A stretch of 64,000 bases of DNA from Mya arenaria (Eukaryota > Mollusca > Bivalvia > Myida > Myidae). Shown one piece after another: positions 32,601 to 35,600 of the stretch; within the stretch, counting starts at the first letter, position 1; each line of letters starts with the position of its first letter. The notes beneath the pieces are model-generated. The model searched no databases. It was not told where the DNA came from and worked only from the letters and a program-made list of their open reading frames with translations. The translations under genes were made by a program, and so were the position numbers. The DNA lies in NCBI RefSeq assembly GCF_026914265.1, contig NC_069135.1, forward strand, positions 30,260,738 through 30,324,737, given 5' to 3'.

Positions 32601-35600
32601 TTATCACTGTTTAAATGTATGCACATGTAATGTAGACCATAAGGATTACAAATAATCGCCCAAATTATTAATTGATAGAGTTTACTAATGCATGTAGTTA
32701 TATATATCACGCCTCCAAAACGAATAGAACAACGCCATCTGCCCAGGACTGGTCAAACGGTGATCCTAAATCTTCCCATCTTGAGTCACTATTCTTTATA
32801 TCATACCAAACTTTCCGATTCCGATGAATAAATGAAACATTTCAAAGATAGTGTTGGCGTCTTGATCAATCAAAACGGATTTTCGACGTGATATATATAA
32901 CAGGGCTTGTAGGTGCACGATATGGAGTATACAGGTCGCAGGAAATCATATCGGGTCGGAGCTTCACTCTCATCCGTTATGGTTTCATTACCCCCGTATA
33001 TCCAAAATTAGGTCACCTTTTAACCACGTTAGTTATAAAATTGGTATGTTCATGTGTTATGAAATATTATAATATAAAATTATATACATCTTCTAAAAAC
33101 CCGTTGAGTTTACCTAAAGAAGTTGATGGAATTGAATATGTGTTATATGTAGGATAATTGATTTTCGTTCAGATATGATTGCTATTCCTGATTTTGGCCT
33201 TGGAGCCATGGAAAACTGGGGATTAATAACATACCGAGAGACCGCCATGTTGTACAATTCTGTCGTATCGTCCGAAGCCAACAAGCAAAGGGTCACCACC
33301 GTTATCACCCATGAGCTTGCACATCAGGTTGATACATATATTAGGTGTCGGTACTGCTAGATATAGGCGGAATTACCTATTGTTTTCATGTATTTCCTTC
33401 AAAAGTTTACCTTTCTTTATTTACAACTGCGACCAATGCTAAAGCTTGCCCTTTGTGTGCACTAACTATCTTTCACATAAATTTGACGGATACATATGGT
33501 GCTACTAGTGCAAGTAGGAAACTAGTTTAAATGACACCGAATGCTTTCTTTAAAACTGGCACATCAGGTGGACTCATATTGCAGATGTTAACTGTGCTTA
33601 TACAAGCATCTATGAGGATATTTTATATATAAAAATAAGTATATATGTATACTTACCTTTAAAAATATATTCAGGTAACCTGATATAAATGTATTGGAAC
33701 CCGCTGGTATATCACCTCTCGTATGCAAGACCATAGCCAAGACGTGTTTTATCTATTGAATAGATGTTTAGCTGAGTGAAACCAAGAATACATTTATATA
33801 CATGCTTGCTAAATGTGCTATAGCATAGATCATGAGCTAGGTTGTTATGTACTTGCTTTTATGTTAGAGCACTTGTCCAACGCTTCAGGATGATTAAAAC
33901 TAGATTTTGAATGTACAATAGGCTAGTCTCACAACATGGCGATCTCTCATTTCAACTTTTGTCATATGTTTAATGGCTTTGACAGCAATTGTTTGAACGA
34001 AAATAACATAAGTGTCTATATGAATTTAAGATTATATTTGTAATTTAATTAGACATGATAGCGATTCCGGACTTTGCTGCTGGAGCGATGGAAAACTGGG
34101 GTCTGATAACGTACAGAGAAACCGCCATGTTATTTAACCCTGACATCTCTTCTGAAGCCAACAGACAGTGGGTTACAACTGTTATCACACACGAACTTGG
34201 TCACCAGGTTTACTATCTGTTATCACAATTCACACTTGAATGAAAAACAATATTAGGTATAAATGTATATTTACCCAGATATATGGGGTATTATCATTTT
34301 TCGAGTGACATTCTCATGAAGAACATTATTGCAAAGAATCATGTTTGTTGTTGTTGTTGCTGTTGTTTAAATCGTTGAGCATATTACGCATTATATTACA
34401 TTAATCGCTTGTAAAAAGTTTCTTGCAAAATATTGCTCAAAAATGTAAGTATATGCCATAAATGCTTTAAATGTCTCAGGTGTTTAATGCACAGGCAATA
34501 TGGCGGTCTCCTAAACGTTTTTCGATACGGTTAACTACACTCTAAAACCTTTGGCATTATAATTTATGACTTAAGAGATGATCTGCTCATTTGAATAAAG
34601 ACCGGAACCAAATGTTCAATAATCATTGTTTTATTGAATCATATAGACATGATTGCTTTGACCGATTTCTGCCCGGGGGCTATGGAAAACTGGGGACTGA
34701 TCACGTACAGGGAGGCCGTCATGTTGTACCACGATTATGTGGCGTCTGAGTTTGACCTTCAAGAAATTGTTACTGTTATAACACATGAGCTAGCGCACCA
34801 GGTTACACTTCCAAATAAACAGTAAAAATCGTTTTCAAACAAATGCACGATAATAAAAGATTCTGCCAACATGAACGGCGATATATATCTTCTCAATTGT
34901 CCCAACCAAGCAGAAGAGGCGAGAAACAACGAATTGTCTTTTTTGACAGCATTGCCTATTTTTCTACATACAAATAGTTAATAAACGATTTAAATTTGTA
35001 TAAAATTCAAATAATATCAATTAGTTGATAATAACGCATATATGTGTCCCGCTTTGTTTTGTGTAAATACTGTTTATACATGTACATAAGAATGATTTGG
35101 ATCCAGAAAAAAAAAGAAATATTACAAGATCCTCTGATAAAAAAGTTATATTAACAAATGTGAACCTATTTCATGTACGTATGTACATGTACTTCTTATA
35201 TTTATTCAGTGGTTTGGGGACCTGGTTACCATGGATTGGTGGGACGATATTTGGTTGAACGAGGGATTTGCAACGTTTGTCGAGTACATGGGAGCTGACA
35301 TGATACACCCAGACTGGCAAATGGTAAGGTTTGATCTTATTGAGCTCTGTGTTTCATTAAGTGTTCTTTAGACCTCGATCCCTGATCCTTGTGCCTTTAT
35401 AAAAGGTCTTCTGACAAATGTTGGACTGCATGACTCGTCCATATAGTTGTCTCATATGTACCCGTTCAGCAAATTGTTTCTGACATTGTGATTATTAGGC
35501 TCTAATGATGCAAAAATTAACTTCTAAAAGCGTTGAATACTCCTTTTGTCTAATTTTCCACACAAAAGCCATGTTGTATGGCAAAGAAGTCAACTGTTTG

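Follow-up and report, generated by a model that had tools for sequence, protein, structure and literature searches.

Can one gene for a zinc peptidase supply alternative versions of its own catalytic centre by splicing? The question is raised by a gene of the bivalve Mya arenaria in which the exon that carries the active site of an M1 (aminopeptidase N-like) unit is present in three tandem copies, here called cassettes A, B and C. The gene lies in a stretch of 64,000 nucleotides (C14:30260738-30324737; hereafter the window), and positions below count from the first letter of the window. The reading that is favoured here, and that the sequence makes probable, is that the cassettes are mutually exclusive exons whose exchange alters the S1 specificity of unit 1, the choice among them probably being regulated.

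Gene layout and the logic of the reading frame

Judged from its conceptual translation, the gene encodes a single polypeptide composed of two tandem M1 units. The features needed to follow the argument are these:

30574..41516, + strand: unit 1, spliced in frame and open, listed from inside exon x2 through exon x21
32342..32580, + strand: x7, the upstream common exon, with donor AAG/GTACGG and phase 1 at its end
33173..33327, + strand: cassette A, 155 nt, GL-GAMENWG...HELAHQ, gatekeeper Leu
34053..34207, + strand: cassette B, 155 nt, AA-GAMENWG...HELGHQ, gatekeeper Ala (shared with APN and PSA)
34647..34801, + strand: cassette C, 155 nt, CP-GAMENWG...HELAHQ, gatekeeper Pro (shared with ERAP2)
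35210..35323, + strand: x8, the downstream common exon, holding the third zinc ligand
35769..35903, + strand: x9, a common exon containing ...DTISYSK, in which one residue corresponds to the catalytic Tyr
41862..42197, + strand: linking exon, in which the frame of unit 1 continues and the start of unit 2 is encoded
42024..50664, + strand: unit 2, with just one active-site exon
44316..44470, + strand: single counterpart of the cassettes in unit 2, 155 nt, SA-GAMENWG...HELAHQ, serving as an internal control

With cassette A in place, the chain from within x2 to x20 is free of stops, and x21 then joins on. The first part of the linking exon is, by the general pattern of M1 sequences, probably the C-terminus of unit 1; its unit 2 part scores 20.7 bits against PF17900 (cut-off 25.8) and shares 50% identity with the beginning of unit 1. 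The two units differ by an intron that unit 1 lacks and that, in unit 2, lies between the exons near 43608-43730 and 44072-44192. Unit 1 assembled with cassette C matches, over its first 574 residues, PF01433 (272.3 bits) and PF17900 (181.3 bits), the zinc site consists of GAMEN and HEXXH-X18-E (the spacing of 18 being taken from the translation), and the Tyr of DTISYSK in x9, placed by alignment to APN, is presumably catalytic. On the strength of these Pfam domains, motifs and Tyr, unit 1 is classed as an M1 aminopeptidase.

The original prediction had described three exons of 155 nt that enter in phase 1, leave in phase 0, are bounded by their own AG and GT and carry both the GAMEN and HEXXH motifs of unit 1, and every one of these particulars, coordinates included, agrees with the present analysis. 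Each cassette alone matches PF01433 (A 70.1, B 71.4 and C 57.8 bits, cut-off 27.7), C being the most diverged of the three with the lowest HMM score, and G[AG]MEN is encoded on either strand of the window only by the three cassettes and the unit 2 exon. As homologous tandem internal exons of equal length and phase with their own splice sites, the cassettes have the anatomy of a mutually exclusive cluster. It had further been deduced that only transcripts with exactly one cassette encode the enzyme, and on paper this rule holds: the join of x7 to a cassette to x8 is open for A, B or C singly, while all five other joins are broken, AB, AC, BC and ABC by T followed by one or two stops directly after the first cassette, and the skipping of all three by a shift of x8 out of frame. 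Under the proposed mechanism each mRNA would hold one of A, B and C, and the frame-broken transcripts with none or several would presumably be lost to decay. The frame-breaking length was inherited rather than evolved for exclusivity, because the single exon of unit 2 is likewise 155 nt with identical phases.

Several other features of the window were recorded. About 299 copies of a 21-bp repeat at 11742-18010 are open in several frames on both strands, and one minus-strand reading gives a repeated THNATQE with an N-A-T sequon in many units. A tandem array at 57948-59491 has nested periods of 62, 93 and 155 bp and is rich in CAGTGCAACAACGCT; the 25-bp unit TACTATAAACGATACATTCTTTATA occurs in about two copies at each of 54306-54353 and 61916-61963, 7.6 kb apart; a microsatellite with ACTA repeated some 47 times (96% matches) lies inside a unit 2 intron at 48153-48342; and an open frame of 253 aa with ordinary composition occupies 5714-6475 on the minus strand.

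Constraint on the cassettes and variation at the S1 pocket

The three cassettes are 64.7-75.0% identical in nucleotide sequence and 63.5-82.7% in protein sequence. Their NG86 proportions of synonymous and nonsynonymous differences (A-B pS 0.85, pN 0.08; A-C pS 0.82, pN 0.19; B-C pS 0.87, pN 0.22) place synonymous sites near saturation, and comparison of the cassettes with the unit 2 exon gives pS 0.70-0.87 and pN 0.15-0.20. When neutral evolution was simulated from B, the frame and both motifs survived in 7 of 20,000 runs at 0.3 substitutions per site, and both motifs in 0 of 20,000 at 0.5. Since pN is far below pS and the motifs are lost under neutrality, all three cassettes are, by these measures, under purifying selection and maintained as coding exons; maintained exons of non-symmetric length would make sense only if used singly.

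This conservation bears on two other accounts of the triplet. One is that a single cassette, probably B, is constitutive and that the other two are rare spares or poison-type exons that lower the output of enzyme. A non-symmetric exon placed beside another cassette gives stops in the manner of a poison exon, and the donors of all three cassettes are weak and the predicted fold pairs A and C, not B, with intron elements (both described below); but a poison exon needs no reading frame, GAMEN, HEXXH or pN far below pS, and A and C keep all of these, so this account seems quite improbable. The other is that the triplet is a roleless remnant of partial gene duplication or an artefact of assembly. 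The genome does carry multiple M1 genes, and tandem duplication is a frequent event in general. Against this, synonymous divergence is saturated while the protein is conserved, the splice borders are intact, no clear ungapped similarity was found in the 60-nt flanks on either side of the cassettes, and no second exon of unit 1 is duplicated, a comparison of the unit 1 exons with unit 1 having found no repeat at a meaningful E-value besides the active-site exon. The original prediction had named an assembly artefact as a possible refutation; the divergence of the cassettes, together with their dissimilar flanks, excludes a recent assembly duplicate, and a roleless triplet of either kind is very hard to credit.

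A tree of the cassettes and their paralogues gave no firm order of duplication, 0 of 6 forks having full support. The A-B intron contains, at 33556-33588, 33 nt that resemble the 3' border of cassette A in sense orientation (76%); their score of 34 is the best of 12 comparisons, 200 resampled introns having yielded 33 at most, and the stretch is perhaps the relic of a fourth cassette.

The remaining M1 loci of the genome (1,216,080,610 bases in 18 contigs) were located with the PF01433 profile, which gave 40 matches that group as this gene and twelve other M1 places. Nine stretches representing eight of the twelve were searched by tblastn with A, B and C; the four left out of the comparison (C13:67480699, C14:16439341, C14:42738643 and C14:42800250) have matches that begin or end elsewhere in the profile. 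No tandem cassette copies were found in the eight loci by this search. Six of them have one cassette-type exon each, with aligned gatekeepers A, A, S, G, S and F, the F belonging by alignment to a diverged locus (L015) in which SGMEH replaces GAMEN. Both loci on contig C8 have an intron-split version: L016 (C8:7409500-7415500) and L017 (C8:6598000-6604500) lie 0.8 Mb apart, the translations of their active-site exons are identical, and the intron splits the GAMEN region. The active-site exon nearest to that of unit 2 (46 of 52 residues) is in L011 (C16:30340501-30347500), where the next M1 match is about 11 kb off.

What the cassettes would exchange can be read from their alignment, in which the cassettes disagree at 19 of the 52 columns, six of which hold three different residues. 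A variable S1 residue is reportedly the subject of Dalal 2013 (JBC). By alignment, eight of the 19 residues that Table 5 of PMC6222927, as excerpted, lists for the S1 pocket of ERAP2 fall on the cassette; A, B and C agree at six of these (F, G, A, M, E, H), and the two variable ones are the pair preceding GAMEN, which is GL in A, AA in B, CP in C and Ser-Ala in unit 2. According to excerpts of the structural papers, the second residue of the pair contacts the P1 side chain (PMC3244404) and is a highly variable gatekeeper at the S1 entrance (PMC6222927, section 9), namely Met260 in PepN, Val459 in PfA-M1, Pro333 in ERAP2 and Tyr267 in LTA4H; in PSA it is a small Ala that opens the site (PMC10343166). 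The earlier observation that catalytic residues are kept while those just before GAMEN differ thus gains a structural footing, both residues being described as S1-lining in these sources.

By gatekeeper, B resembles APN and PSA, C resembles ERAP2, and A, with Leu, matches none of the enzymes just named. Among the seven enzymes of Table 5 in the excerpt of PMC6222927, APA and the six cassette-type loci of this genome, a Leu gatekeeper is absent and a Pro gatekeeper is found only in ERAP2. The best PDB match of the whole cassette departs from this pattern (glutamyl aminopeptidase for A, ERAP2 for B and APN for C).

It could be argued that the cassettes are spliced alternately but confer the same substrate range, the duplication having served dosage, regulation or stability. 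The catalytic positions and most S1 positions are invariant, and the S1 cap and further S1 residues fall outside the cassette when mapped from the excerpted Table 5 of PMC6222927. Statistical enrichment of S1 positions among the variable columns was not found (columns with three different residues number 2 among the 8 at S1 and 6 among all 52), and the argument for a functional swap therefore rests on structure; yet the gatekeeper is Leu, Ala or Pro at the very site that the papers tie to P1 preference, and an equal substrate range appears unlikely. If substrate preference does change, the catalytic set would remain constant while the S1-lining pair was swapped (Gly-Leu, Ala-Ala, Cys-Pro), and splicing would reset the preference of unit 1 for the N-terminal residue while unit 2, with Ser-Ala, stayed fixed. 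The splicing of one gene would then shape a peptidase's substrate pocket at a position where, elsewhere, it is separate M1 genes that differ. The locus would thereby provide three natural forms of one enzyme that vary at the S1 gatekeeper and are alike outside the exchanged exon, and so a clean way to test how that residue sets specificity.

Splice sites and candidate control elements

The donors of A, B and C all read CAG/GTT.., and all three lack both a purine at +3 and G at +5, a combination of losses seen in none of the 31 other donors placed in the two units (Fisher P 1.7e-4, with no correction for common descent). Their matrix scores are 2.5, 0.8 and 2.8, against 2.5-10.6 for the others. 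Outside the 31 are the donors of x2, x3, x12 and x13 of unit 2, whose ends were not placed, and those of x15 and x21 of unit 1, both of which have A at +3. In the single-cassette M1 exons (six loci and unit 2, donors aligned), the +3 purine is missing in 0 of 7. The notion that T at +3 is exclusive to the cassette donors was rejected, two unit 2 donors having it as well. Because these 5' splice sites are weak, each cassette would need activation, and its choice is probably regulated, although the weakness may be shared by descent rather than selected.

Other explanations of exclusivity were considered. Steric clash or a mismatch of U2 and U12 sites is unlikely, as the inter-cassette introns are 725 nt (A-B) and 439 nt (B-C) long and no U12-type donor was found among 34 donors. 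TGCATG, presumably an RBFOX-type motif, occurs 35 times in the window against 45 expected, with one copy within 32581-35209, and gave no lead.

An inverted-repeat scan first brought to light two intronic sequences that are antisense to the conserved core of the cassettes:

33931..33948, + strand: element I, 17 of 18 pairs with A at 33236-33253, ending 104 nt upstream of B
34495..34512, + strand: element II, 18 of 18 pairs (GU counted) with C at 34710-34727, ending 134 nt upstream of C

There is one element in each inter-cassette intron, both are directed against the same 18-nt core, and 16 nt of element II pair with cassette A too. The antisense core, allowing up to 3 mismatches, was found at six places in the 64 kb, the four cassettes and elements I and II, where 0.05 matches are expected. 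None of the 250 dinucleotide shuffles run for each element reached the complementarity scores of I and II (39 and 37), the highest shuffled scores being 37.5 and 36.5. Across 30 further intron stretches of this gene, 10,800 nt in all, the best score is 29, and the best in 14 flanks of seven single-cassette exons is 30. The 17-nt core of element I has one exact match in the genome and, with at most one mismatch, 11 places including itself and cassette A (very common words skipped); it is therefore no evident high-copy repeat.

Duplex energies rank the partners of element I as A (-29.7), C (-25.4) and B (-19.8), and those of element II as C (-34.0), A (-32.0) and B (-25.5); the core of the unit 2 exon also pairs well with both (-27.7 with I, -30.5 with II). 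When 33150-34850 is folded in silico, at 15 or 37 C, I-A has 16.8-16.9 and II-C 17.8-18.0 expected pairs, and the lowest-energy fold of 32581-35209 at 15 C again joins I to A and II to C; cassette B is unpaired with either element in the predicted folds. The longest exon-intron helices predicted for the actual sequence are 17 for A, 18 for C and 9 for B. Of 40 folds with shuffled introns, one had a longest helix of 17 and none had one of 18; the second-longest helix was at most 14 throughout. Pairing of elements I and II with the exon core thus exceeds chance among long-range pairings within the cluster.

A candidate third element, the 15 nt at 33048-33062 that lie 110 nt upstream of cassette A and can pair, GU included, with the part of C that encodes HEXXH, is paired in the lowest-energy fold of the whole cluster but does not rise above shuffles (13 of 250 equal). 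A search upstream and downstream of the cluster for intronic docking and selector sequences of the Dscam type gave no signal above shuffles at 12 to 40 shuffles per setting. Docking sequences of 20 nt were equalled or bettered in 2 of 12 shuffles upstream and 1 of 12 downstream, those of 16 nt in 4 of 40 upstream and 25 of 40 downstream, and those of 30 nt in 19 of 19 upstream and 2 of 14 downstream.

The folding suggests that the antisense elements could mask cassettes by base-pairing, I acting on A and II on C, and, with less certainty, that B, with its gatekeeper like that of APN and PSA, would be left as the default. Several points weigh against such masking: folding of long RNA as modelled leaves out proteins and co-transcriptional order, the pairing is seen in a single genome, the exon core of unit 2 pairs well with both elements too, and cassette A is transcribed ahead of element I, so that A could be recognized before element I exists. 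That the elements are inert relics of inverted exon fragments is an evenly balanced proposition. The look-alike of the A border at 33556-33588 suggests that exon-like scraps do occur in these introns; on the other hand, I and II share one 18-nt target with one element per inter-cassette intron, nothing comparable was found in the other intron stretches or the single-cassette flanks, no further copy exists in the window, and element I is no evident dispersed repeat.

A more elaborate and rather doubtful model is that RNA masking itself limits the cluster to a single choice, two elements sequestering two of the three cassettes so that one stays exposed. Either element could pair with the conserved core of any cassette, a shift in pairing would yield another active site and another substrate preference, and the sequence that encodes the active site would double as the docking site. 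The antisense elements would constitute a compact and directly testable model for the choice of exactly one among homologous exons.

Comparison with known systems

Beyond the original prediction of alternative active-site exons, the analysis adds the antisense intron elements, the weak cassette donors and the ancestral asymmetry of exon length. Dscam-type clusters are reportedly under the control of competing RNA pairings (Graveley 2005), and they share with the present cluster the tandem homologous exons, the long-range pairing and, as predicted here, the use of one per mRNA; docking and selector sequences are intronic there, whereas here the partner of the intronic element is the exon core. 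M1 enzymes with a single active-site exon (APN, ERAP2, PSA, APA and others) have the same domains and motifs, and the Ala of APN and PSA and the Pro of ERAP2 recur in B and C, respectively, but their gatekeeper varies between genes and here it varies between exons of one gene.

The earlier statement that no M1 peptidase had been described with alternative active-site exons is borne out in the open-licence literature, among the matches listed. Human tandem duplicated exons are characterized as rare, ancient and important in PMC9741552, in whose main text neither 'peptidase' nor 'aminopeptidase' is present. Exon skipping and circular RNAs are reported for a moth APN, and excerpts of that paper (PMC6722899) describe no active-site cassettes.

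Parallels are also found in other enzymes, as described in excerpts of the respective papers. In oyster alternative oxidase, also a mollusc enzyme with a duplicated exon, the two variants of exon 10 are used in a stress-dependent manner (PMC5589949), but that exon is terminal and chosen by an alternative 3' splice site, whereas the M1 cassettes are internal. In ACSL1 and ACSL6, a mutually exclusive exon pair swaps a fatty-acid gate residue between Phe and Tyr (PMC1543647); the likeness to a gatekeeper swap is evident, but the ACSL exon comprises the gate motif only and the M1 cassette also carries the zinc site. The mutually exclusive exons 6a and 6e of COQ-2 in helminths, annelids and molluscs (PMC7434440) likewise are homologous exons whose exchange rebuilds an enzyme's core and changes which substrate it accepts. 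COQ-2, however, is a prenyltransferase with two such exons and RNA support, and the present case is a zinc peptidase with three exons, known from sequence alone, whose cassettes, unlike those of COQ-2, contain the catalytic motifs. Mutually exclusive exons that alter the substrate site of an enzyme therefore have precedents in COQ-2 and ACSL, and it is the candidate control element of the M1 cluster that is unusual.
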